DNA from: a virus
IMG/VR virus record: IMGVR_UViG_3300042868_000229
Coordinates: 1-29,814 of that record
Reading direction: 5' to 3' (one strand)
Length of the DNA: 29,814 nucleotides
This document shows, one piece after another, positions 4,454 through 19,675 of the stretch; position 1 is the first letter of the stretch, and every line of letters begins with the position of its first letter. The translations under genes were made by a program, and so were the position numbers. The notes below the pieces were generated by a model. That model saw only the letters and a list, made by a program, of their open reading frames with translations, had not been told where the DNA came from and did not search any database.

Positions 4454-6041
4454 TGCCTTCAGCCTTCTTCATCATCTGGTGTAGTTTACGAGCACCTTCC
4501 ATCCTATCACCATTTCCCATGCCGCGCACTGCACGGCCCGTGAATACAAACTCTCCATCTGACAGTGCTGCTGGTGTCTTACCACCAATCAAAGCTGGGA
4601 CACTATCTGACGTTTCTGTACCCGGACCCTTTACAAGACCACCGTTACGCTTCTTGTTTTCCTCGTCTGGTGCAATAACAGGTTCACGAAGTAAGATAGG
4701 CTGTCTGTTAGGGAAGTAGTTATACTCTGGCGTAAACGTGCCATATGTAGAAATGCCCATGTCATAGTAAGCCTTCTCAAGAGGCGACAATGCGGCATAT
4801 TCTTCATCAGATAGCTTACGAGTATTAGGTGTAGTACCCGGTGCTACGGGAGTCGTTGTAGACTGCGGAACAATAGTAGGCAAAGCCGCAGGTGTAGTTG
4901 CTGCTACAGGAGCGACAGGCTCAGTTGCAGCTTTCTTTTCTTGAGGTTTATTTGCCCCGCCGCCATTACCATACTGCTCACGGTACTGATCACGAGTTAA
5001 ATCACCACCCGGACCATATCCAATTCCTTCACTTGTGATAGAACCCGGATCAGTAGGAGAAATTGATACGTTACCATCACCACGCACCATATTGGCAACT
5101 GATGGCCCACCAAGTGCTGCAGAAGCAAGACTCGCTACACCAAGTGCTGGACTAATAATACCGGGAACCATATTAAGACCAGCATTAATAACTTTGTCTG
5201 ATAAACTTATTTTTGCTTCTGCTGCTCGGCGTGATGGGGTTGATTCCAATTCAGAAATAGATTCAGAAATAGATTTAGGATCACCACTTTTAGCGGCAGA
5301 AATAACAGATTTAGGAACTGATCCATACTGATAACCAACAGAAGTCATAGCTGCTTTTGCACCTACAGGCAAACTATCCCATGCTTCCTGACCAATTGTT
5401 TTAGCAAGTGTATTTTGAATACCAACAATACGGGCATTTAAGTCTACATTTGCATCTTCAACGCTTATAGTATCATCCATTGTAACACGTCTTTGTTCCC
5501 CTGTTACAGGATCAGTAATTGTATCAGATGACCACCCTACCCTTGGTGCATTAACATCCCAAAATGCTTTTGGAACAAAACCTTCAAATCCTTGAAGAGC
5601 AATAGCAGATTTCGTTAAAGCAGGATCATAGTTAATTCCAGTCCCAGCTAGAGGCGCACCACCGCGAGGACCAAATTGAGTTGGGCTACCGGGCAGTTGA
5701 GGTGCAGGAGCACCCACATAGTCATACCTACCGCCAGAGACATTCGGCGTTGGGACTGAACCTATACCGCCACCACCGATGGGACGACCTACATCTTCAC
5801 CGCCACGGCCCATACCACTACCGCCGCCTTGTCGATCTCTATCACCACCACTGGCTCCGGGGCTACCACTACCGCCGCCTTGACGATCACGATTATCACC
5901 ACCGCCATAAAGTGCTCCACCGCTAACAGGCCCGGCATTGTTCTTAGCTAGGTTGTTTTCAATCGTCCTAGTTAATCTATCAACATAAGACCGACTGTCA
6001 CTCGTGCCGCCATTGCCTTGACTACCACCACCACCACACAT
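4425..6041 (-). CDS. Virion protein with phage-lysozyme-like (GH24-type) domain, 538 aa
   Basis: Three parts are visible. Residues 1-135 are Gly-rich, begin MCGGGG, and contain a duplicated unit, RDRQGGGSG (51-59 and 68-76). Residues 137-280 look like a phage lysozyme. GFEGF supplies the likely catalytic Glu153, WDVN supplies Asp162 nine residues later (the same E-x8-D spacing as in T4 lysozyme), and VGWSSDTIT follows. The position of the T4 catalytic Thr is Arg167 here. Residues 280-325 are moderately hydrophobic, and 365-410 are Pro/Thr/Ala linker. The C-terminus has GPGTETSDSVPALIGG and LSDGEFVFTGRAVRGMG (472-509), a motif I know from the C-termini of other phage virion proteins. The likely role is local peptidoglycan opening at DNA entry, because a separate endolysin exists at 8115. 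The start overlaps the upstream stop as TAATG. Confidence 0.85.
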   Translation of the reverse strand: MCGGGGSQGNGGTSDSRSYVDRLTRTIENNLAKNNAGPVSGGALYGGGDNRDRQGGGSGSPGASGGDRDRQGGGSGMGRGGEDVGRPIGGGGIGSVPTPNVSGGRYDYVGAPAPQLPGSPTQFGPRGGAPLAGTGINYDPALTKSAIALQGFEGFVPKAFWDVNAPRVGWSSDTITDPVTGEQRRVTMDDTISVEDANVDLNARIVGIQNTLAKTIGQEAWDSLPVGAKAAMTSVGYQYGSVPKSVISAAKSGDPKSISESISELESTPSRRAAEAKISLSDKVINAGLNMVPGIISPALGVASLASAALGGPSVANMVRGDGNVSISPTDPGSITSEGIGYGPGGDLTRDQYREQYGNGGGANKPQEKKAATEPVAPVAATTPAALPTIVPQSTTTPVAPGTTPNTRKLSDEEYAALSPLEKAYYDMGISTYGTFTPEYNYFPNRQPILLREPVIAPDEENKKRNGGLVKGPGTETSDSVPALIGGKTPAALSDGEFVFTGRAVRGMGNGDRMEGARKLHQMMKKAEGNASKGGSRK

Positions 6042-6313
6042 TATGCCACCACCGCTCTGTCTGTTACACGCCGCCAGTTTGTACCATCTGAAAAGGCAAG
6101 TACTGCACCGCCAGTTTCATTCGACACATAGATAATTTCACCGGGTTGAGCAGCACTAGGAAGATCTGTCTTTAAAAAAGAAGATACCCGTGCAATAGAA
6201 CCCCTTGTCTGTTTCGTGCGTTCCAAAACGTCAATCGTTGACTCTAGGATACGAACACTCTCATTCGCCCAAGCAACTACACTGTCAGGACTAAGTAAGT
6301 TAGCTAATCTCAT
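6041..6313 (-). CDS. Small virion-associated protein, 90 aa
   Basis: The C-terminal half, from about residue 50, reads LPSAAQPGEIIYVSNETGG followed by AFSDGTNWRRVTDRAVVA. This beta-rich segment is very common at the end of small phage structural proteins and fibre-tip domains. The N-terminal half is helical and amphipathic. The gene overlaps the upstream gp10-like gene by 4 bp (ATGA) and the downstream lysozyme-fusion gene by 1 bp (TAATG), so the three are probably translationally coupled. A structural or tail accessory role is inferred from motif and context; no catalytic motif is seen. Confidence 0.75.
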   Translation of the reverse strand: MRLANLLSPDSVVAWANESVRILESTIDVLERTKQTRGSIARVSSFLKTDLPSAAQPGEIIYVSNETGGAVLAFSDGTNWRRVTDRAVVA

Positions 6314-8115
6314 CTACGACCAACTCCAGATATATCAACACGAATGTCACCAACACGCCACCAATTATCTACAGCATTTGATGAAAGCTTAATAGTCGCC
6401 ACTCGACCCTGAGCACGAGTGTCAACCTTATCTGAAGACTCGTCAAATGTCAAAGTTTTCACTTGTTCGTCAGGTGAATTAGCCCACCTTCGTGTTTTAA
6501 TTTCCATGTTAAGAGTAGAACCAGACTCGAATGAAACGTCTGGAACAATACGAGAAATGTTTACTACGTTCTCACCGTCATCAACGTCGAACTGAGCACT
6601 TTCAATGTAGCAGTCAATTGCTGTACCATCATTATTGTGACCATCTTCGTGGGAATAGATATACCCCGTATCGCCATGAGCATCATAGCCACCAATACCA
6701 ATTGGGTAGTTAAATATGCTACCGTCAACCCAAGCAGTCCTTACAACATCACCAATATACCATGTATTTTCTACATAATTATATGCAACAAATCTATCAA
6801 TCTCTGCATTTGTTGAACTAATACTTGGATAATACCAAACAACTTCATTGAATCTTGAGTTCACAGCACAATTAATAATTGGGTTACCAGCCTTTTCAAG
6901 ATCATCAAACACATATCTACTGACAGTACATGTTAACTCTCTAGGAGCAGAACCGTCATACATAAAGAACTTGTTATTGTTTGACATCCAGAAAGTAACG
7001 CCGTCTACTTCTGCCCATGCCTTACTACCTATCAAGCCACAGTTTGTACCAAGGATATTGAATCCATATACTAGCTCAATGTCTCCAAGATAACGCATGG
7101 CATAGAGAGATGTATCCGTCCAGATTAGATTCTGCACACGTGAAACACCACCACCCATGATGACTGATCCAGACTGCAGCGGAAATTCACCCGAAAGTGT
7201 AGTTGCTGAAGGAGTCCAGTTTGCGTAGTCTTCTTGATCAGACCACCTTACAAGAGTAGGTGAATATGTATCGGTCCCATAATCATGAGTACCAAGACAA
7301 ACAACAAACCTTTCAGGTGTTACAAAGCTATAGTCATTTCTATCAGGACCAGTTGATATATATGTTGCCCTATTGGCTACGTTTCCATCCCATACATATA
7401 ACTTCCCTGCATAAGGATTTGCAACTAGAAAGTTTCCAAACTTAGAGATGGACCAAGTACGTGGGTTTAATGTAACAGAAGATGCGGCTCTTGCGGTTCC
7501 CCAAGTAGACAAACCCCAACCACCAACACCCCAACCAAACTGATAACCACCATACTCAGGACCAATTGAAAGTTCAAACTGATAGTCAATTGTCCTTGAT
7601 GCAGTAGTTACTGTGCTAGTAGCATTTGAAGTGTGTACAACTGTATATGTATTAGCCGTTGGAACTACGGTAACTAAATACGTACCACTAAGTGTAATTC
7701 CACCAACAGCAGAAGATTGATTTGCAAATATAACTGTATCGCCAACAGATCTACCATGACTATTATGTGTGATGGTTACATTAGGAGTTGCATCTACTGT
7801 TGCTATGTTTACTGTAAATGTAGTTGCAGCACCATCTAACGGGGTAATGTTTGATATAGTATTTGATGTATCAGCAATATAAAGCTTCTTGTTTGTACCA
7901 ATAGAAAGGTATTTTCTACCAGACGAATCAGAAAATGATATTACAGCACGACCCTTACCAGAGATGGACGATGTGCTGAACTTTGTCCAACCACCAATCT
8001 TCTCCGGCTTACCACGGAAAAACCGCACGTTTTTACCATCCGACCAGAAACCTTCTGAAGTCAGAGATGGAGAATCTTTAAAGATACCGGGTTGAGCGGG
8101 TAGTTTTTTAAGCAC
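6310..8115 (-). CDS. P22 gp10-like tail/DNA-stabilisation protein, 601 aa
   Basis: The N-terminus (PAQPGIFKDSPSLTSEGFW, then SDGKNVRFFRGKPEKIGGW) and the later WSDQEDYANWTPSATTLSGE plus TDTSLYAMRYLGDIELVYGF match my picture of phage stabilisation proteins related to P22 gp10. These beta-propeller-like proteins plug the head-tail connector and retain packaged DNA. Residues about 100-175 look like an inserted beta domain (ITHNSHGRSVGDTVIFANQS, then a TYTVVHTSNATSTV segment), a unit found in many phage structural proteins. The C-terminal third is beta-rich and ends DISGVGRR. The start codon is GTG at 8115, overlapping the endolysin stop (TAGTG); no other Met is available for more than 300 nt. 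The gene sits just downstream of the lysis cassette, away from the other connector genes. Confidence 0.8.
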   Translation of the reverse strand: MLKKLPAQPGIFKDSPSLTSEGFWSDGKNVRFFRGKPEKIGGWTKFSTSSISGKGRAVISFSDSSGRKYLSIGTNKKLYIADTSNTISNITPLDGAATTFTVNIATVDATPNVTITHNSHGRSVGDTVIFANQSSAVGGITLSGTYLVTVVPTANTYTVVHTSNATSTVTTASRTIDYQFELSIGPEYGGYQFGWGVGGWGLSTWGTARAASSVTLNPRTWSISKFGNFLVANPYAGKLYVWDGNVANRATYISTGPDRNDYSFVTPERFVVCLGTHDYGTDTYSPTLVRWSDQEDYANWTPSATTLSGEFPLQSGSVIMGGGVSRVQNLIWTDTSLYAMRYLGDIELVYGFNILGTNCGLIGSKAWAEVDGVTFWMSNNNKFFMYDGSAPRELTCTVSRYVFDDLEKAGNPIINCAVNSRFNEVVWYYPSISSTNAEIDRFVAYNYVENTWYIGDVVRTAWVDGSIFNYPIGIGGYDAHGDTGYIYSHEDGHNNDGTAIDCYIESAQFDVDDGENVVNISRIVPDVSFESGSTLNMEIKTRRWANSPDEQVKTLTFDESSDKVDTRAQGRVATIKLSSNAVDNWWRVGDIRVDISGVGRR

Positions 8116-9956: not shown

Positions 9957-10841
9957 TTATAAATCCGCTGTATTTGTTGATGGAAATGATCTATTTGGTC
10001 CCCAAATAATACGAACAGCACCGACGCCACCGGGACCACCATTGCCGCCACCGCCGTTGCCTCCACCGCCACCGCCGCCGTATAGCCCAGCAGTACCAGC
10101 ATTGGCAGTGGTTCCTGTCCCACCAGTCGTACCGCCCGATCCACCCTCGCCGCCGAGTCGAACTGCCGCCGCCGCAGCACCACTAGCACCTTCGCCTAAT
10201 ATGCCGACACCACCGCCGCCGCCACCGCCGCCGACGTTATTAGACGTACTACCAGAACCGCCATAACCACCCCCGCCGCCGCCGCCTGTTCCTGCGGTTC
10301 TTGAAGAACCAGTGTAGTTACCACCGCCGCCACCATTACCAGAATAACCAGCAGCACCGCCGCCACCGCCGCCGCCTCTTGCACCATCATTGGCCCAACC
10401 GCCGCCACCGCCTGTTCCACCGCCATCGCCAGTAAATGTTCCTCCAGCGTTTGCTCTTGCTGGGTTAGGAGAGCTACCATTACCAGCACCACCTAGAACA
10501 CCGTTTTGACCGCTTACCGTAGCTAGAGATATAAAATAACTATCTCCACCGTTGCCTTCTATTGCGCCACCTGCCCCAACAACAACTGTATACGCAGTGC
10601 CGGGAGTTACTGCTATATTATTTTTCCAGCCTAAACCACCACCAGATCCACCGTTACCTCCTGATGAGGCAGTCCCACCACCACCGCCCCCGCCGACACA
10701 AACAACAGAAACAGAAGATACACCAGCGGGTGCTACCCACGAATAAGTTCCGGCGGTTGTATATGCATCTTGTCCAACAGCAGACAAACCAGCACCAAAA
10801 CTTCTAGCAGAAGCAGCCCCAAATGATCCTAATACTGGCAT
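9957..10841 (-). CDS. Polyglycine-rich tail adhesin, 294 aa
   Basis: The first ~50 residues end with AYTTAGTYSWVAPAGVSSV, the beta segment that commonly precedes glycine-rich domains in phage fibre tips. Residues about 50-280 are runs of 3-8 glycines broken by Ala, Asn, Ser, Thr and Tyr. This is the composition of polyglycine-II receptor-binding tips such as the gp38-type adhesins of T4-like phages. The C-terminus (AVRIIWGPNRSFPSTN) returns to ordinary sequence. A TTG nine bases further upstream is possible, but the ATG at 10841 sits right after the upstream stop (TAAAATG) and is preferred. GC content is locally much higher than in the neighbours because of GGN codons. Host-receptor binding is inferred from composition and position. 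Confidence 0.82.
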   Translation of the reverse strand: MPVLGSFGAASARSFGAGLSAVGQDAYTTAGTYSWVAPAGVSSVSVVCVGGGGGGGTASSGGNGGSGGGLGWKNNIAVTPGTAYTVVVGAGGAIEGNGGDSYFISLATVSGQNGVLGGAGNGSSPNPARANAGGTFTGDGGGTGGGGGWANDGARGGGGGGGAAGYSGNGGGGGNYTGSSRTAGTGGGGGGGYGGSGSTSNNVGGGGGGGGVGILGEGASGAAAAAVRLGGEGGSGGTTGGTGTTANAGTAGLYGGGGGGGNGGGGNGGPGGVGAVRIIWGPNRSFPSTNTADL

Positions 10842-10842
10842 T

Positions 10843-12234
10843 TTAATCAAACTTCACTTGTGACGCGAGTACTATATATGTAGGCGTGGCTGCAGTTTTA
10901 ATAATAGTATATGAATATGAGTCAGAAGCACTTACACTTCCAGCAGAAGGTGCTCCCCCGCCTTGGTATTTTGGCGTAACCGAAACTCCATCAATTTGTA
11001 TAGCAGTGTTATAATATGCTGTAGCCCCATTTGTTACCGTCATGTTTACAGTAATTATATCACCAACTGCCATTAGTGATGCCAACGTTGTTGCACTACT
11101 ACCGCGAATGTTAAGCGTCCAGTTATTTGCGGTATCTGTTGTAACATACCAGACAGACTGCGTTAACACGTCATAGTTCATCGTGGATGCCCACGTAACT
11201 GAACCATACGTGCCGTTCTCAATAATATTAGGAATCTTCAAAGCTGCTGCTGTAGTAGTTCCGGTAATTTCTACAGTGTCAATTGCTGGGCTTGTAAGTG
11301 TCTTGCTTGTAAGAGTTTGTGTACCAGTAAGAGTTACAACTTCAACACCATTGGCCTGTACAATTCCAGATCCTTTTGGTTTAATATTTACAGAGATATT
11401 TGTACCATCACCACTAGCAGCAATAATAGGAACACCAGTAAAAGTAGCAGTGTGTACACCGCTCTGTGTACCAGTAGTTGTGATAGACGTGCCACCAGTT
11501 GTAGCGGCGATATTAAATGTAGTGCTATTAATTAACTTTACAAAATATGTAGTACCAGAAACAACCCCTGTTGGCAGTGTACCAGTAGATGTAAATACCA
11601 CCGGAGTACCAGTTGGCGGCGTTGCAGCGACAGTGACTACAGCCGGAGCGGCAATTGTCATCGTTGCAGATACTGCAGGTGACGCTGCGTTTGATACAGT
11701 CACTTCATTCACAGCACTTGTAACGGTATCCATGACAATCAATTCGTTGCCATTGGCGTCAGCAATAAATCCACCATCAGAGAATCTAGGTGCGGTAAGT
11801 GTTTTGTTTGTGAGAGTTTGTGTTGCCGTGATCGACGCAGGGTTATTAACTAATTCGCGAATATCAGTTCCATCACAGTAAACATAAGCTTTTGTTCCCC
11901 CGGCAATAATAACACCAGTCTGACCAGAAACTTTTACGGTAACATTATAATTAGAAGCATTATGAAAAATATAAGGACGCTCATATGCTGGTACTGTGTA
12001 TGTTATATCAGCAGTTAAAGTACCTGTAAACTTGTAAACCAAGTTGTGATAGTCACCAATAGTAAAAGCGGTAACTGAAAGTGTGGTATCCGCTGTGGCT
12101 GTAACTTCGAAATATGCATTAGTAGCACCTTCAAGCATTTGGAGATTTTCATTGGTGATAGTACCCCACTCGTTAGAGTTAGCACCAACTTCCATTAATT
12201 CTAATCGTAATGACGAAGACGTACCACTAGCCAT
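10843..12234 (-). CDS. Tail fibre protein with QTLT(N/S)KTLT repeats, 463 aa
   Basis: The N-terminus (MELMEVGANSNEWGTITNEN-like, residues 13-30) resembles the virion-attachment part of many phage fibre proteins. Two repeat elements, [11 protein letters not shown] (139-149) and QTLTSKTLTSP (306-316), belong to the fibre shaft or trimerisation motif seen several times in this module. Between them, residues 200-262 form a beta-rich insert (GTLPTGVVSGTTYFVKLINS) that recurs in phage structural proteins. The C-terminal ~130 residues are a beta-rich tip. SD AAGGA precedes the ATG. The antisense strand is open for 232 codons here, which is a composition effect. Confidence 0.83.
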   Translation of the reverse strand: MASGTSSSLRLELMEVGANSNEWGTITNENLQMLEGATNAYFEVTATADTTLSVTAFTIGDYHNLVYKFTGTLTADITYTVPAYERPYIFHNASNYNVTVKVSGQTGVIIAGGTKAYVYCDGTDIRELVNNPASITATQTLTNKTLTAPRFSDGGFIADANGNELIVMDTVTSAVNEVTVSNAASPAVSATMTIAAPAVVTVAATPPTGTPVVFTSTGTLPTGVVSGTTYFVKLINSTTFNIAATTGGTSITTTGTQSGVHTATFTGVPIIAASGDGTNISVNIKPKGSGIVQANGVEVVTLTGTQTLTSKTLTSPAIDTVEITGTTTAAALKIPNIIENGTYGSVTWASTMNYDVLTQSVWYVTTDTANNWTLNIRGSSATTLASLMAVGDIITVNMTVTNGATAYYNTAIQIDGVSVTPKYQGGGAPSAGSVSASDSYSYTIIKTAATPTYIVLASQVKFD

Positions 12235-12245
12235 TTTTTAAATCC

Positions 12246-13022
12246 TTAATCATTCTGTGCGTTTTGCTCTACCCAAGCCTCTGTCTCAGGAGATACAATT
12301 TCATCCCAAGACTCTATGGAAGTGTTACTTATAGCATTCCACGTCTCTGTTTCACCAAGATCGATTTCGCCTGTACCTTCACCTTCGCTTGATGCAGTAG
12401 ACCAAAACTCGACTTCTCCAGTAGACAATTGACCCCATAGTAAAACATTATTACATGCAATGTTTAACTGTAAACCAGATGGATATACGTTTGCAGCAGC
12501 AGGGATACTTACTGTTCCACCAGCAAATGAAGCTAAAACACCAAGTGCGTTAGTGTTGGCATCTCCTGCTATTACAAGAGATCCTACACTAATAGCTATT
12601 CCATTGCAAGTAACAGAAGTATTAGCGGCAGCGGTTACTATAACTGTGCCAATACTGAAAATTCTTCCAGTGTTTATAGGAAGAACTGAAGCACCAGCAG
12701 CAATGCTTGTGGTTCCTATATTAAGAGCAGCACTAACAGATGTTGATGAAACTCCTGCATTGCCTGTTAGAGTAGTAGCACCAACAGAGAATGACGCATT
12801 TACACCAGACGCAAATGCATTTTTACTTATTGATATCGATACAGAGCCAGTATTTATTGTCATGCCTGAATTTATAGGCAGTACATTAGCACCAGCGGTA
12901 ACAATTGTCGTTCCTACAAACGATACTAGGCTATTCAGCGATGGGTTTATAGTAACACTTGGATTAGCAGCCGTTTCAAAGGCAGTGTTCTCAAATGCTG
13001 TTGATTCAAATGCTGTTGCCAT
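12246..13022 (-). CDS. Fibre-module protein with seven 22-residue repeats, 258 aa
   Basis: Residues 37-190 divide without a gap into seven 22-residue units. Each starts with Gly, has alternating small and beta-branched residues, and has a second near-invariant Gly or Asn turn (GTTIVTAGANVLPINSGMTI is the first unit). Such exact periodicity suggests a beta-solenoid or beta-roll shaft. Before it, residues 3-17 are three copies of TAFE(S/N/T). After it come about 60 acidic residues with regularly spaced Trp (FWST, TWNA, SWDE, AWVE). The gene is coupled to the upstream 52-residue gene by TAATG. A role as a fibre or fibre-capping protein follows from its position between fibre genes and is inference. 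I do not recognise the family. Confidence 0.82.
   Translation of the reverse strand: MATAFESTAFENTAFETAANPSVTINPSLNSLVSFVGTTIVTAGANVLPINSGMTINTGSVSISISKNAFASGVNASFSVGATTLTGNAGVSSTSVSAALNIGTTSIAAGASVLPINTGRIFSIGTVIVTAAANTSVTCNGIAISVGSLVIAGDANTNALGVLASFAGGTVSIPAAANVYPSGLQLNIACNNVLLWGQLSTGEVEFWSTASSEGEGTGEIDLGETETWNAISNTSIESWDEIVSPETEAWVEQNAQND
12453..12914 (-). repeat. Coding region of seven 66-nt (22-residue) units
   Basis: The 462-nt stretch encodes residues 37-190 of the 258-residue protein as seven units of exactly 22 residues, with Gly at unit position 1 in all. The DNA copies are diverged, so this is an old, structure-kept repeat. Confidence 0.8.
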
Positions 13023-13180
13023 TATTCCTCGTCAGCGGGTAGTGGTGTATTGCCCTTGGCTATCCATTCTTTAAACTCTGGATATTCAGCCGTGCATGAC
13101 AGTCTCCACAAACCATCCTCATCTATGCGAATATAGATTTGTTCTTCACCTTCAACCAATGGAAGACATTTAAAAATCAT
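13022..13180 (-). CDS. Small conserved fibre-module protein, 52 aa
   Basis: This short frame runs from an ATG at 13180 that overlaps the upstream stop (ATGA) to a TAA that overlaps the next start (TAATG), so it fills the gap exactly. The protein begins MIFKCLPLVEGEEQIYIRID and ends with EYPEFKEWIAKGNTPLPADE. The WIAKGNTPLPAD ending resembles C-termini of small proteins next to phage fibre genes, which I associate with fibre assembly or chaperone-like partners. It could help fold the fibres on either side. Function is not established. Confidence 0.78.
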   Translation of the reverse strand: MIFKCLPLVEGEEQIYIRIDEDGLWRLSCTAEYPEFKEWIAKGNTPLPADEE

Positions 13181-14383: not shown

Positions 14384-14689
14384 TTACGCTCCCGGCCTTG
14401 TAGGCCAAGTTGGGTTTAATGGGTCCGTAGTATTAGCAGGAAGATCACGCAAAGCCTGACGGTATGTTGCCCATGCTGTCTGTGTTTCGGAAGACATTGC
14501 AGCCCAACGGTCTGGCATTACCGATATATCACTTTCACGGAGTAATTCATCGCGGTACTTACGCAATTTTGACAATGCTTCATCTGCATCAAGTTGAGCA
14601 GCATGGGCAATTATTGCGGCGGCTTCATCATCAGGGATTATGATGATTCTCTGTTCTCCCGTGATTAAGTTAACCTCTATCCGTTCCAT
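14384..14689 (-). CDS. Tail fibre/tail assembly chaperone-like protein, 101 aa
   Basis: The C-terminal half, LRKYRDELLRESDISVMPDR, then TAWATYRQALRDLP and a WPTRP ending, matches the phage tail assembly chaperone type (PF16778-like: R-x2-LL-x2-SD ... YRQ-LR-D-P). The N-terminal part (MERIEVNLITGEQRIIIIPD) is the usual short beta hairpin before it. The same frame is open upstream to 14767, but that stretch is the antisense-frame reading of the preceding fibre gene. The ATG at 14689 has GAGGA just upstream. It lies between two fibre genes, and a role in fibre folding or attachment is inferred. Confidence 0.83.
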   Translation of the reverse strand: MERIEVNLITGEQRIIIIPDDEAAAIIAHAAQLDADEALSKLRKYRDELLRESDISVMPDRWAAMSSETQTAWATYRQALRDLPANTTDPLNPTWPTRPGA

Positions 14690-14694
14690 ATGTT

Positions 14695-14735
14695 CCTCAC
14701 TCGTACATGATGTTGATAGTGCCAGCGTCAAAAGT
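14695..14735. repeat. 41-bp direct repeat, copy 1 (fibre cassette boundary)
   Basis: This element covers the end of the 293-residue fibre gene and the spacer to the assembly-chaperone-like gene. It matches 38 of 41 bases of the copy at 15584-15624 in the same orientation. The two copies, 889 bp apart, bracket exactly one fibre gene. Confidence 0.85.
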
Positions 14736-15578
14736 TTGTACACCACCTGCGGTTGTAATACGAACACGGTCTAATACAGCTCCCAAAGCTACAGATCCGG
14801 TTGTAAAATAAGTAGATGAAATGCCAGATACAGTAATTGCTCCGCTACCAGACCACGTATTTGAGTCAATCAATGAAAAAATTACCTGTCCACTAGCAAG
14901 GTGACTAGCCAACCAATTTGAAGTGTTAACACCAATACCAAAAGCTGCTGTAAAATTAACAGAGAGAACGGCTTGAGCAACAAGAGAATTTCCACATACA
15001 TATCCAGAACTAACTATACCTCCTGCTGTACCAAGTTGAATTTGAGGTGGTGATGTTCCAGTTGTAGAAACACCACGAAAAATCACCGTAACACGCTTTA
15101 CCCACGACGGTATGTCAGTAAAGTCGATGCCAGTACCAGACGTAGATGCTACTGATGTTCCACTGATCAACATCAAATTACCAGCAGTTCCGGTTACAAC
15201 ACCGGAGGTGTCCATACTTATAGATTCAGTGTTACCCGTATATAATGCTATTGGATTAAATGCGTTATTGTCACTATTAATGCCACTTAAATGTGCAACC
15301 CCTCCAATAGACTGTATCCTTAATCCAGCCGCCGCTTCAGTTGACCCAGATAACTGTGTGGCACCACCAACGACAGCTAATCTATAGTTATCGGTCGTCC
15401 CAATCCCAACATTGCCGGACGCATTAACACGCATACGCTCAGTGCCACCCGTCGAGATGCCTACGATATCTGTGCCGTAGAACATACCCGTGTTGGTATC
15501 AGCACCCTGCATCGATGGAGTGGCTGCAGTGCCATCAATCCCGGAAATACCTGTAGAACCGTTTATGGTTACAGTCAT
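14697..15578 (-). CDS. Tail fibre, paralogue A of tandem pair, 293 aa
   Basis: The N-terminus TAATPSMQGADTNTGMFYGT and then GISTGGTERMRVNASGNVGI is a classical phage fibre segment (shaft with 'GGTERMR-x2-ASGNVGIGT'). The last ~155 residues (from about SGTSVASTSGTGIDFTDIPS) are paralogous to the C-terminal domain of the next fibre upstream. They share TDIPSWVKR, FxGVST, LDRVRITT, FDAG-INIMYE and the exact end. The frame opens at 15620, but the ATG at 15578 has GTGAGG at good spacing. The gene is bracketed by two 41-bp direct repeats, so the whole cassette looks duplicated or exchangeable. Confidence 0.85.
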   Translation of the reverse strand: MTVTINGSTGISGIDGTAATPSMQGADTNTGMFYGTDIVGISTGGTERMRVNASGNVGIGTTDNYRLAVVGGATQLSGSTEAAAGLRIQSIGGVAHLSGINSDNNAFNPIALYTGNTESISMDTSGVVTGTAGNLMLISGTSVASTSGTGIDFTDIPSWVKRVTVIFRGVSTTGTSPPQIQLGTAGGIVSSGYVCGNSLVAQAVLSVNFTAAFGIGVNTSNWLASHLASGQVIFSLIDSNTWSGSGAITVSGISSTYFTTGSVALGAVLDRVRITTAGGVQTFDAGTINIMYE

Positions 15579-16262: not shown

Positions 16263-17720
16263 TTAAACGATTGTCCAAACACTACCGGAAGGAACTGTTA
16301 CAACAACACCAGAAGCAATAGTAATAGGACCAAATGTTCCTGCGTTACTACCAGATGGTATTGAATATGGTGAATTTATAGTTTGATCGTTATTATAAAA
16401 CACCAGATCAGTACCACCACCTGTAGGAACTGCACTGCCACCACCGCCACCAGTTTGTTCTACCCACGAAGTATTTCCAGTGCCGTCAGTAGCTAGAACA
16501 TAATCAACTGTACCAGCAGAAGATGGCAAAGTAAGCGTCCAGCCACCAGCCGTAGCATTTGCCTTTACGACAGTTGTACCAGAAGTAGAACCATTTAAGG
16601 TAAAACCAGCAGAACCAATCGTTGGAGTTGTAAGAGTGGGTGACGTTCCAAACACCAAAGCTCCAGAGCCAGTCTCATCCGTAACTGCAGCAATAAGATT
16701 GGCAGAACTAGGTGTACCTAAGAATGTAGCTACGCCAGTACCAAGACCACTTACACCAGTGCTAATAGGCAGACCAGTAGCATTGGTAAGAGTACCACTC
16801 TGTGGTGTACCTAGAATAGGAGTTGTAAGTGTTGGTGACGTAAGTGTTTTATTTGTGAGGGTTTGAATACCGTCAAGCGTTGTAACGGTGCTGTCAATAC
16901 TGAATACTGTACCAGCTAGTTGTAAACCAGTACCCGCAGAATACGATACTGGTGCTGCAAACTGCGTAAATACAATTGACGTGCTACCAATTGTTATTGG
17001 CAACGGTGTCTGCTGAACCCAAGACGTGTTTGCGTTTGTAGAACCATTTGTAATAAGTAAGAAGTCACCAGCATTGACTTGATTAACACTGGAACCAGCT
17101 TCGTCAAAATCCAATGCACGAGTAAGAATGAATGGGTTAGATCCGTCTCCAACCTGAGATACTGTGTAAACACCATTTTGAAATGCAGATGCTTGGTTTT
17201 TTACAAGAATTCTATTGGTAGAAGCGGGTGTGAATCCATCGACAGACAACGCTGCGTTAGCTGTAGCTGTAAGCGTTGCACCTACACCAGACGTGCCGTT
17301 GTCGTATGTACACGTTGCCAGTGCTGCGGCGGTGGCATATTTACAAGCTTCGTGGAAGTTGATACCAGCAGACAAAGAATCTGCATATGTCTTGTTTACA
17401 AGATCATTTGCATTAGTTGGCACAGTTACAGTTGTACCACCAGTGATAACTGGGGATGTAAGTGTTTTATTTGTGAGGGTTTGAATACCAGTAAGCGTAG
17501 CTACGGTTGTATTTACACCAAGCGTACCACTGGAAAGTAGAAGGTCACCAGAAACAGCAATTTCTTCAGCAGCACCTGTACTTGCAGTAGTTCTGCCTAC
17601 AAGTTTACCAGTTGCCAACTGCAACGTATGTTCAGCGTTCCAATTAGAAGGCTGTACAAGCGTTGCATCAACACCGTCTGTTTTTCCTGAGTTAAATGCA
17701 TGTTTTAGTGATATTGCCAT
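16263..17720 (-). CDS. Proximal tail fibre / fibre shaft protein, 485 aa
   Basis: This is the first and largest fibre gene of the module. The N-terminus ([20 protein letters not shown], then [14 protein letters not shown]) is a common fibre start, with NWNAEH typical of the virion-attaching part. Two exact copies of [12 protein letters not shown] (79-90 and 285-296) flank a domain with [17 protein letters not shown] and [15 protein letters not shown] (160-194), known from many fibre proteins. The C-terminal part has further short repeats and a Gly-rich linker (GGGGG at 424-428) before a small tip. The two repeats are also identical at DNA level over 32 bp. The start overlaps the upstream stop by 1 bp. 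Confidence 0.86.
16840..16871. repeat. 32-bp direct repeat in proximal fibre gene, copy 1
   Basis: Identical over 32 bases to 17458-17489. It encodes the second [12 protein letters not shown] unit of the 485-residue fibre. Flanking sequence soon diverges, so the repeat is either recent or maintained by conversion. Confidence 0.85.
17458..17489. repeat. 32-bp direct repeat in proximal fibre gene, copy 2
   Basis: Identical over 32 bases to 16840-16871, 618 bp away. It encodes the first [12 protein letters not shown] unit. Recombination between the two would delete in frame the domain between them. Confidence 0.85.
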
Positions 17721-18139
17721 TACGACAACCTAATAATAGCACTCGAAGAATTTGCAGTTGGGAACACAATCGCAAATGTTCCATTCGTTGAAATCTGATC
17801 AGTCGTAAAGTCTAGGACTGCGATGGCTTTATTTGACTTGGTAAAGTTATAAATAAGCCCATAACGAGCAGTGATAGTAGCAGAGGCCCAAGACGTGTCT
17901 GTAAAGTCTACAATTGCTGTAGAGCCATCAAGAGAAATTACTGCACCTGCCAATGTATTACCACCAGCCGTATATCCAGTTCCGCTGCTGGATACTTCAT
18001 TACTTGTACTGTAAGCCGTAGTTGATGCCGAAACAGACGCTGCACTTGTATAAAGTGCCAACTTAATTACGTCGGTGTCAAGATCGTGAGTCCCTCCAAG
18101 GACTTCTGTTTTAAATGAATTACAAACTTCACTAGCCAT
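17720..18139 (-). CDS. Structural protein next to connector genes, 139 aa
   Basis: The sequence [20 protein letters not shown], then [34 protein letters not shown] and [10 protein letters not shown] is a small beta-rich phage protein type. I have seen this type repeatedly beside connector and tail genes, usually annotated only as a structural protein. It starts as TAATG coupled to the SU10-like connector and ends overlapping the first fibre gene. It may be part of the connector-fibre attachment site, which would fit its position. No catalytic motif is visible. Confidence 0.78.
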
Positions 18140-18747
18140 TAGATAAGACCCTTAGTTTTGAACTCGTCAGATGAGTTCTTTGTTTCCATAAGTTGCAGAC
18201 GCTGCATTGCCTCAGTATAACTTGTTTTGTACATAGTTAAAAGGTCTGGCGCGGCTTGAAGATAAATAGCTCCTTCGTACACACACGCGGCGAATAAAAC
18301 ATCTTCTGCATTTGTTCCAAGCCACGTAGTTGTTGCTGTAACAATAGAAGCAGGGCTATACGTGTATGAGATTTCAACAGTAGACGCAGCAGACGGTGTT
18401 GGTGCTAGGAATACAGTATTAGCATCCCAATGAGCATAGTATTTTGGTGTACCTGTAGTTGCAGTATTAGGTGTGTATTCGCGAATAAAGCTTTCTGCAC
18501 GAAGTTCAAGAAAGTCCCCGGTGTTTAAACGAACATATCTTACAGCTAGACAGTCAAGAGGAAGAGCAAGATATGCATCAGAAATAATAAGATTGGCAGT
18601 TGCGTGTTTTCTAAACAGACGAAGATCGGACTCACGAACAATCCGATTTTCTGCATTTTTAATGATTTGATCTAGGTTGGCTGCAAGTTCTGTAGACTCG
18701 TTGTTCAACCAGCTTACAATACCAGCTTTTAAAGTTGTATAGTTCAT
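18139..18747 (-). CDS. SU10-like adaptor / head-tail connector protein, 202 aa
   Basis: The N-terminal helical part (YTTLKAGIVSWLNNESTELA through IIKNAENRIVRESDLR) is followed by a beta part with LPLDCLAVRYVRLN, TGTPKYYAHWDANTVFLAPT and VEISYTYSP, and a C-terminal helical part with LLTMYKTSYTEAMQRLQL. This order matches the adaptor proteins of short-tailed phages (SU10/T7 gp11-like) that dock on the portal and carry the tail. It overlaps the zinc-finger gene by 4 bp. An octamer GTTTAAAC lies in it at 18533 (residues RLN). Confidence 0.8.
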   Translation of the reverse strand: MNYTTLKAGIVSWLNNESTELAANLDQIIKNAENRIVRESDLRLFRKHATANLIISDAYLALPLDCLAVRYVRLNTGDFLELRAESFIREYTPNTATTGTPKYYAHWDANTVFLAPTPSAASTVEISYTYSPASIVTATTTWLGTNAEDVLFAACVYEGAIYLQAAPDLLTMYKTSYTEAMQRLQLMETKNSSDEFKTKGLI

Positions 18748-19009: not shown

Positions 19010-19675
19010 TTACCTACGCCGCATAGATGGATACATAAATGTACTAGTACGATCACGATCACCTTCCATTGCGTAATTCATATTACGATCAAACTCTGCA
19101 AGAAATGAAGGCCAAGCTGGGGCAGATGCTGGTTTCTTAAGTGCCAACTTATATGTCAGACCTGAGATAATAGCTGGGAGAAGTTGATCAGGAACATCGA
19201 TAGTGTTGGTATAATCACCAACATCTTGGATCTTACGCTTCTTTTCAAACTTAACTGTATATACACCATCTGGAACAGACCAGAGATACAATACAATTGC
19301 GTCTCGTTGCTTATCTACATAATAAGTAGACGGAGTACCTGTTGATGTTTTGTCTGGAATTACGGCATAATCACTATACGAATAACGAGTTAGCTCAATA
19401 TCAGTAGAGCTTACTGTAACTGTCACATTCATAATATCAAGAGCGTTAGCATCTAATACATATGTAGCGGTAGACGCTACAGTAGAAATTGAATCCTTCT
19501 CAGAAATAAATGCAAAGAGATTCCTGTTAGAGAACTCCCTAAATAGAAGGTTTAAGCTTCTACGTGCTGATTTAAGCTCATGACCAGTTGGTGTAAGGAC
19601 TCCAAGTGGCTCATAGGCTTCAGCAATGATGTCATCCACAGTAAGGTTAAATGTAGATGTACCTGAAGTAGCCAT
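19010..19675 (-). CDS. P22 gp4-like head-completion/connector protein, 221 aa
   Basis: The N-terminus (VDDIIAEAYEPLGVLTPTGH, then ELKSARRSLNLLFREFSNR) and centre (VYTVKFEKKRKIQDVGDY, PDQLLPAIISGLTYKLALKK) fit the packaged-DNA stabilisation gp4 family. These proteins attach to the portal after packaging. The Asp/Pro rich turn 'IDVPDQLLPA' and the following helix are a strong hallmark. The C-terminus is basic (MYPSMRRR). It lies between the two small virion proteins and the zinc-finger protein, in the expected head-completion position. P22 gp4 also has muramidase activity, but I see no support for that here. Confidence 0.83.
   Translation of the reverse strand: MATSGTSTFNLTVDDIIAEAYEPLGVLTPTGHELKSARRSLNLLFREFSNRNLFAFISEKDSISTVASTATYVLDANALDIMNVTVTVSSTDIELTRYSYSDYAVIPDKTSTGTPSTYYVDKQRDAIVLYLWSVPDGVYTVKFEKKRKIQDVGDYTNTIDVPDQLLPAIISGLTYKLALKKPASAPAWPSFLAEFDRNMNYAMEGDRDRTSTFMYPSMRRR

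Follow-up and report, generated by a model that had tools for sequence, protein, structure and literature searches.

A predicted beta-solenoid protein with aromatic end motifs, encoded next to a tail-fibre gene in short-tailed aquatic phages, as a possible fibre-carrying arm

The locus studied here raises the question of what a repeat protein that resembles no named fibre family does in the tail-gene region of a phage. The window, that is the whole stretch of DNA analysed, is one 29,814-base IMG/VR virus record and comes from a short-tailed phage of water bacteria, the short-tailed class being assigned because a SU10-type adaptor and a nozzle protein are present. The protein in question, P0001, has 258 aa and is encoded on the minus strand at 12246–13022. 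We used its translation, its relatives and its gene neighbours to ask whether it may be a tail component, and which one.

On the minus strand, the window carries in this order a terminase, a 794-aa protein at the place expected for the portal (the Pfam portal model had no match in the record), the major head protein and two SU10-type adaptors, followed by a CNSFK protein of 139 aa, several fibre-like genes in a row, the repeat protein and a fibre-like protein, and then by a Gly-rich protein, small proteins, a muramidase, the nozzle protein and an ejection-type protein. The adaptor lies at 18139–18747 (minus strand; Pfam SU10_adaptor, E 1.1e-24) and a second adaptor-like protein at 19010–19675 (minus strand; SU10_adaptor, E 7.6e-15); the two genes nearly adjoin each other. 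The CNSFK protein (17720–18139, minus strand) matches PHROG 644, a group of unknown function. Its gene is 4.7 kb away from the repeat gene, with several fibre-like or accessory genes between; in 51 of 100 relatives a CTSFK/CNSFK-type ORF lies at most 1.5 kb upstream of the repeat gene and is thus its usual upstream neighbour. By adaptor and nozzle, the closest named phages are Roseobacter phages CRP-901/902, Pelagibacter phages HTVC023P/027P, psg01 and DSL-LC04. As a side observation, the proteins encoded at 9957–10850 of the window and at 5191–5928 of the relative L003 both start with MIKMPxLGSFGAASAR and then diverge, the window protein being Gly-rich and that of L003 having a different sequence, which can be read as an anchor that is kept while the distal part is exchanged.

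A first-pass annotation had divided P0001 into three blocks, namely TAFE-x pentapeptides, 22-residue units and a Trp-containing acidic tail, and the translation bears out this layout. At the N-terminus, residues 3–17 (12972–13016, minus strand) read TAFES-TAFEN-TAFET and place Phe at positions 5, 10 and 15. Seven ungapped units of 22 residues follow at residues 37–190 (12453–12914, minus strand), and the exact period that had been claimed for them was recovered as an autocorrelation peak at lag 22. With BLOSUM62, z values of 6.6, 6.8 and 8.4 were obtained for lags 22, 44 and 66, so that a three-unit period of 66 residues is also present, and in none of 2000 shuffles of P0001 did a lag of 50 or less give a value as high as that of the real sequence at lag 22. 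The units are diverged, with a mean identity of 4.3 of 22 residues between adjacent units and 7.5 of 22 between units three apart, and a search for direct repeats at the DNA level of the gene found none. Gly heads 17 of 18 units across three relatives. The tail (residues 191–258) contains 15 D/E and no K/R, and its Trp ladder runs from Trp 196 to Trp 250 (12273–12437, minus strand). Its Trp residues at 196, 207, 228, 239 and 250 give spacings of 11, 21, 11 and 11; the even spacing suggested earlier therefore holds for three of the four intervals, whereas one Trp and one residue have been lost. Three of four spacings of 11 were matched by 21 of 100000 random Trp placements, and in L003, L005 and L134 the spacing is exactly 11 throughout. 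Chance or compositional bias as the source of the repeats was ruled out by the autocorrelation together with shuffles of the profile score described below.

The first-pass suggestion of a beta-solenoid gained support from monomer predictions with AlphaFold2, weakly for the window protein and confidently for the relative L055. The model of P0001 is weak (mean pLDDT 58.4, repeats about 56–75) and has strands recurring every 22 residues; that of L055 is better (pLDDT 77.5, pTM 0.72), with most of the repeat core at 80–95. The units are thus predicted to form a parallel beta-solenoid, while the end motifs have low confidence in both models. In fold comparisons, the P0001 model matched a family 3 pectate lyase (3t9g_B; Z 14.8, rmsd 3.2, 166 aligned) and the L055 model the secretion domain of filamentous haemagglutinin (1rwr; Z 12.5, rmsd 3.8, 175 aligned), scores that come from single-chain models and are often reached by models of repeat proteins. 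Among predicted viral proteins, good fold matches were found only to uncharacterised Caudovirales proteins. The predicted fold is shared with parallel beta-helix proteins such as 3t9g, 1rwr and SufB/SufD (5awf), but these have no sequence relation to the repeat-arm protein and no enzyme function is suggested here; such a common fold reveals no function for it. The curli subunit CsgA is a solenoid of 22/23-residue repeats with a Ser/Gln/Asn/Gln motif in every unit. Its unit length resembles that of the repeat-arm units, but P0001 lacks a Gln ladder and has only a single Gln across its seven units; with no CsgG in the record, a curli-like fibre identity was rejected.

By its sequence, P0001 is a member of a large unnamed and unannotated family of uncultivated and marine phages. 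Against a profile of 87 distant relatives, from whose seed close relatives of the window protein had been excluded, it scored 58.7 bits (E 7.7e-17), compared with a maximum of 6.3 in 2000 shuffles and 10.3 bits for the second-best ORF of the window; the Trp tail alone matched weakly (6.5 bits). The 87 were retained from 122 ORFs after leaving out the 20-residue type as well as short, long-tailed and near-duplicate ORFs, and alignment A2 comprises 64 of them plus the window protein and three close relatives. Close relatives are few (L001–L005 at 62–98%, L134 and L135 at 45%). Among these homologues the unit count shifts by whole 22-residue units: seven units occur in the window and in L002–L005 and four in L134 and L135, L134 differing in length from the window protein by exactly three units. 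The Trp-ladder pattern was found in at least 120 stretches of IMG/VR, most of which, where translated, encode repeats. Among the matches listed, 113 of the 122 ladder-pattern ORFs were testable by length, a period of 22 fitting best in 93 and one of 20 in 16; L107, which is tape-measure-like, is a chance match among the 122. A cellular family was rejected, as eight ladder-pattern matches in genome_contigs stand against at least 120 in viral_contigs. Seven of these eight look like chance matches by their translation, and the sole one with repeats and a fibre gene is L138, a 9-kb contig from a metagenome bin.

No known fibre family could be assigned by sequence, in line with the first-pass annotation, and nothing named was found in Pfam, PHROGs or PDB. 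Sequence searches of these three collections with P0001 gave no family match, a PDB search with the family profile reached only E 0.82, and one of 68 family members hits a PHROG (E 6e-4). Thirteen of the 68 members matched Pfam CTD (Spt5 repeat), which was taken as a chance likeness to the QTPxW ladder, and a Holin_SPP1 match to P0001 (E 0.05) was rejected because it lies under the model's cut-off. Also, tblastn across named phages returned few relatives, we think because the low-complexity filter masks the repeats. Literature searches, out of whose reach most subscription journals lie, found no paper describing the family. By profile, however, four proteins annotated as hypothetical belong to it: HTVC023P gp68 (E 9e-36), HTVC027P gp68 (E 2e-20), WJZ48131.1 of DSL-LC04 (E 2e-65) and URG13121.1 of 023Pt_psg01 (E 2e-14). 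They share with P0001 a next gene of the same kind, and differ from it in how many units they have, which aromatic they use and how long the ladder is.

In the family layout, a repeat spacer of variable make-up separates an N-terminal aromatic triple pentad (aromatic-x4-aromatic-x4-aromatic) from a C-terminal aromatic ladder with a period of 11 residues. The triple pentad occurs within the first 45 residues of 80 of the 110 relatives with a complete N-terminus (mean 2.2 and maximum 9 in 500 shuffles) and reads TAFES-TAFEN-TAFET in the window and GWGRG-TWGSG-TWGE in other relatives; the remaining 30 do not have it, and neither does HTVC023P gp68. In 202 proteins with N-termini made unique by their first 30 residues, aromatic runs at spacing 5 had exactly three members in 192 cases, two in 57 and four in 22, and no run exceeded four, compared with just 2 to 5 runs of three each at spacings 3, 4, 6 and 7. 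Many of the runs of four appear to owe an additional Y or F to chance. The triplets of the repeat proteins are WWW in 94 cases, FFF in 5 and other in 48, so mixed kinds occur.

At the other end, 397 of 402 Trp spacings in the ladder-pattern ORFs equal 11; as the search pattern fixes two spacings per ORF, about 244 of these were forced and about 153 of 158 were free. For the same reason, invariant Trp columns in the family alignments prove nothing, since the search pattern demanded them. Proteins retrieved with the W pattern mostly have W as the ladder residue, and Y is found as well among those retrieved by the next gene. The longest ladder chains have 1, 2, 3, 4, 5 and 6 members in 18, 34, 33, 75, 5 and 32 proteins, respectively. 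Between the two ends, the middle is shortest in L027 (104 aa) and L030 (117 aa), with almost no repeats, and longest in L029 (761 aa), with some thirty units; in L053 (2155 aa) it includes large extra domains. Two variants were also observed. L010, L019, L053, L094, L103 and L111 have repeats of about 20 residues (SETATGTDAVSA; SETATGTD units) together with an 11-residue Trp ladder, and because this type bears the same ladder, one tail is common to shafts of different kinds. L188, L205, L221, L248 and L293 use Tyr as the ladder aromatic (SYSDVATGSNT units, period 11) and often have two triple pentads at the N-terminus.

The gene following the repeat gene begins 11 bases past its stop codon and encodes a tail-fibre-like protein of 463 aa (10843–12234, minus strand), the proposed trimeric partner. 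Its residues 1–140 (11815–12234, minus strand) form a conserved N-terminal domain (LxLELMxxG...WGxxTNxNL in alignment A6; profile E 4.7e-11). With the consensus LxLxxxxTGExSGTWGxxTNxNL, this domain was found in 87 of 96 ORFs located directly after the repeat gene, window included, where about 69 of the 96 had built the profile and the seed did not contain the window protein. Of 120 loci, 20 ended too soon after the repeat gene to be used, and five of the other 100 yielded no ORF there. Many of the PHROGs matched by the next-gene proteins are annotated as tail fibres, tail spikes or virion structural proteins. Peptidase_S74 is present on 19 of 57 scanned proteins, the one of the window being without it, and the N-terminal domain had no match in the PDB (best E 0.46).

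A reverse search by the fibre domain alone yielded an upstream ORF in 97 of about 120 loci. The triple pentad was present in 61 of these 97 versus 98 of 769 other ORFs of the same loci (shuffled upstream ORFs: mean 5.2, maximum 11), and two Trp 11 residues apart were present within the final 45 aa in 37 of 97 versus 3 of 769; when W, Y and F were pooled, any aromatic pair at this spacing occurred in 77 of 97 versus 285 of 769. Repeat gene and fibre gene are also kept together in HTVC023P, HTVC027P, psg01 and DSL-LC04. In CRP-901, the fibre gene comes directly after the CTSFK gene with no repeat gene between, and the arm is therefore a dispensable, optional part. Altogether, the repeat-arm protein is likely associated with tail fibres.

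On the upstream side, the first-pass annotation had considered the acidic tail as a binding site for a partner encoded by a 52-aa ORF. This ORF exists (13022–13180, minus strand) and overlaps the start codon of the repeat gene by one base, but it is not conserved at this place. It is absent upstream of the repeat gene in the relative L003, and tblastn over the loci examined gave, beyond the window, a single weak match (L042, E 8e-5), which lies about 2.4 kb away from the repeat gene of that contig. The ORF was rejected as a partner because its position is not conserved in relatives. It ends with a WxxxGNTPLPAD motif and has weak matches to cyanophage hypothetical proteins (E about 0.01 to 1), and this motif also weakly matches two unknown PHROGs.

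The triple pentad is present a second time in the window, within the nozzle protein of 601 aa (6310–8115, minus strand). The nozzle was identified by phmmer (8zkm_E, E 4.5e-5), by blastp to SU10 gp17 (E 2.4e-4) and by profile matches to 9nwi_Y (E 6.8e-33) and 8zkk_O (E 9.9e-16). Its triplet, W195-x4-W200-x4-W205 (7501–7533, minus strand), sits in GWGVGGWGLSTWG and is the same motif as the GWGRGTWGSGTWGE that opens many repeat proteins; it falls within a stretch of about residues 100–260 that is outside the coverage of the solved nozzles in the profile alignment. An endosialidase-type beta-barrel module is seen at about residues 112–175, just before the triplet (4hiz profile match, E 2e-5; Pfam End_beta_barrel under its cut-off). 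The triplet is retained in 24 of 30 homologues, one of the six peptides used for retrieving the nozzles having included its first Trp; the 30 comprise 29 of 39 loci, the window and psg01, minus L151 with an in-frame stop. Five of the six homologues without it have Y, Y and W at another spacing, and psg01 has a long insertion. Seven of eight isolate or genome records have the triplet, namely WWW in DSL-LC04, HTVC027P, HTVC023P, CRP-901 and MinM2, FFF in Octadecabacter virus DB2 and YYY in Ochrobactrum phage OH; the nozzle of Caulobacter phage GB2A did not align at this place. Among 31 nozzle triplets from related sequences, comprising 16 distinct strings, 26 are WWW, 4 FFF, 1 YYY and none mixed.

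A structural precedent is given by phage SU10, which like the window phage is short-tailed with a SU10-type adaptor and nozzle. According to the structural report (PMC9509320), Trp 839, 847 and 857 in a dock loop of the nozzle gp17 form a quasi-threefold star attaching the trimeric short tail fibre, each Trp contacts Ile 24 of one fibre chain, and every fibre chain clamps the segment preceding a Trp. We confirmed the three Trp in sequence KM044272. P0001 shares with this dock the motif of three spaced aromatics on one chain, but the SU10 spacings are 8 and 10, whereas the repeat-arm family uses pentads and an 11-residue ladder. Also, the SU10 dock is a loop in the beta-propeller of the nozzle, while P0001 is a separate, predicted solenoid protein in a phage whose nozzle bears its own triplet, and the N-terminus of the SU10 fibre (gp16) did not match the profile of the conserved fibre domain (E 0.21). 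By analogy, the likeness between the SU10 dock and the repeat arm is one of principle.

We propose, at slightly less than an even chance, that P0001 is a beta-solenoid arm, a component of the tail whose aromatic-motif ends dock homotrimeric tail fibres. It is read as a fibre-carrying arm because a homotrimer needs three segments from one partner and because the fibre gene adjoins. Each dock would be a single chain presenting three near-identical aromatic segments, one per fibre chain. The N-terminal triple pentad would be the same kind of docking site as that in the nozzle of this phage, and the C-terminal Trp ladder, a second strip with longer spacing, may be a second dock. The solenoid would act as a spacer with its length adjusted by whole 22-residue units, the arm would be detachable, and its cargo would probably be the fibre encoded by the next gene. 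Docking, the trimeric partner and which end binds what are parts that we infer. Against docking, the SU10 spacings (8, 10) equal neither 5 nor 11, and against a threefold ladder, its chain lengths do not follow threes. The mismatch of the SU10 fibre N-terminus, the relatives that lack the triplet, the mixed triplets of the repeat proteins, the missing repeat gene in CRP-901, the frequent pooled aromatic pairs in other ORFs and the weak model of P0001 also weigh against the proposal.

An ordinary trimeric tail fibre or spike, with a trimeric shaft made of the 22-residue units, a virion anchor made of the N-terminal aromatics and the Trp tail as receptor-binding tip, appears rather unlikely to us. 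The gene is placed within the tail-fibre cluster, a solenoid shaft is predicted, and the L055 model matches the beta-helical long tail fibre of phage 7-7-1 (9rkv_M; Z 10.3, rmsd 4.0, 180 aligned), all of which would suit such a fibre. However, the ladder recurs beside the fibre gene in unrelated contigs retrieved by the neighbour gene alone and not by the ladder, which is the opposite of a variable tip and argues against a receptor-binding one. P0001 has neither Peptidase_S74 nor another fibre domain in Pfam, the single-chain model of L055 is already confident, and the same triplet is found in the nozzle, a docking platform. The presence of the triple pentad in a nozzle without such repeats also speaks against a purely structural reading of the aromatic ends, in which they cap the solenoid or let it self-associate and bind no fibre, the protein then being a tail decoration or filler. 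Solenoid ends are usually capped, the first tail Trp (WG) comes straight after the last unit, and the low confidence of the ends in the models would allow such a role; but the repeat type with a 20-residue period has the same ladder, and its variable length is odd for a cap, so that we consider this reading unlikely as well.

Tight coupling of the repeat gene to the fibre gene would also be expected if P0001 were an assembly factor or chaperone for the next-gene fibre, absent from the virion. Small accessory genes beside fibre genes often encode chaperones, and one such gene (Phage_tail_APC) is present at 14384–14767 of the window. A long rigid repeat spacer is unusual in chaperones, however, and one reaching some thirty units, as in L029, would be unusual here, making this the least probable reading and a very improbable one.

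The reading as a fibre-docking arm can be extended to short-tailed open-water phages, cultured SAR11 phages included, as a possibility that we put forward tentatively and with more doubt than the arm itself. The portable triple pentad would be a plug code for homotrimeric fibres, placed both on the nozzle and on the solenoid arm, a separate protein of adjustable length. The residues of the nozzle triplet would co-change (WWW, FFF, YYY) because the chains they contact are identical, and with the arm a virion could bear additional fibres, each held at a fixed distance. If true, this would account for a hypothetical protein that is very common in aquatic phages and is outside Pfam and PHROGs, and would tie its family to the single structure found where three tryptophans dock a fibre. 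It would also provide a readable sequence code for the attachment places of trimeric fibres, and the fibre attachment of SAR11 phages would become directly testable in cultured isolates.
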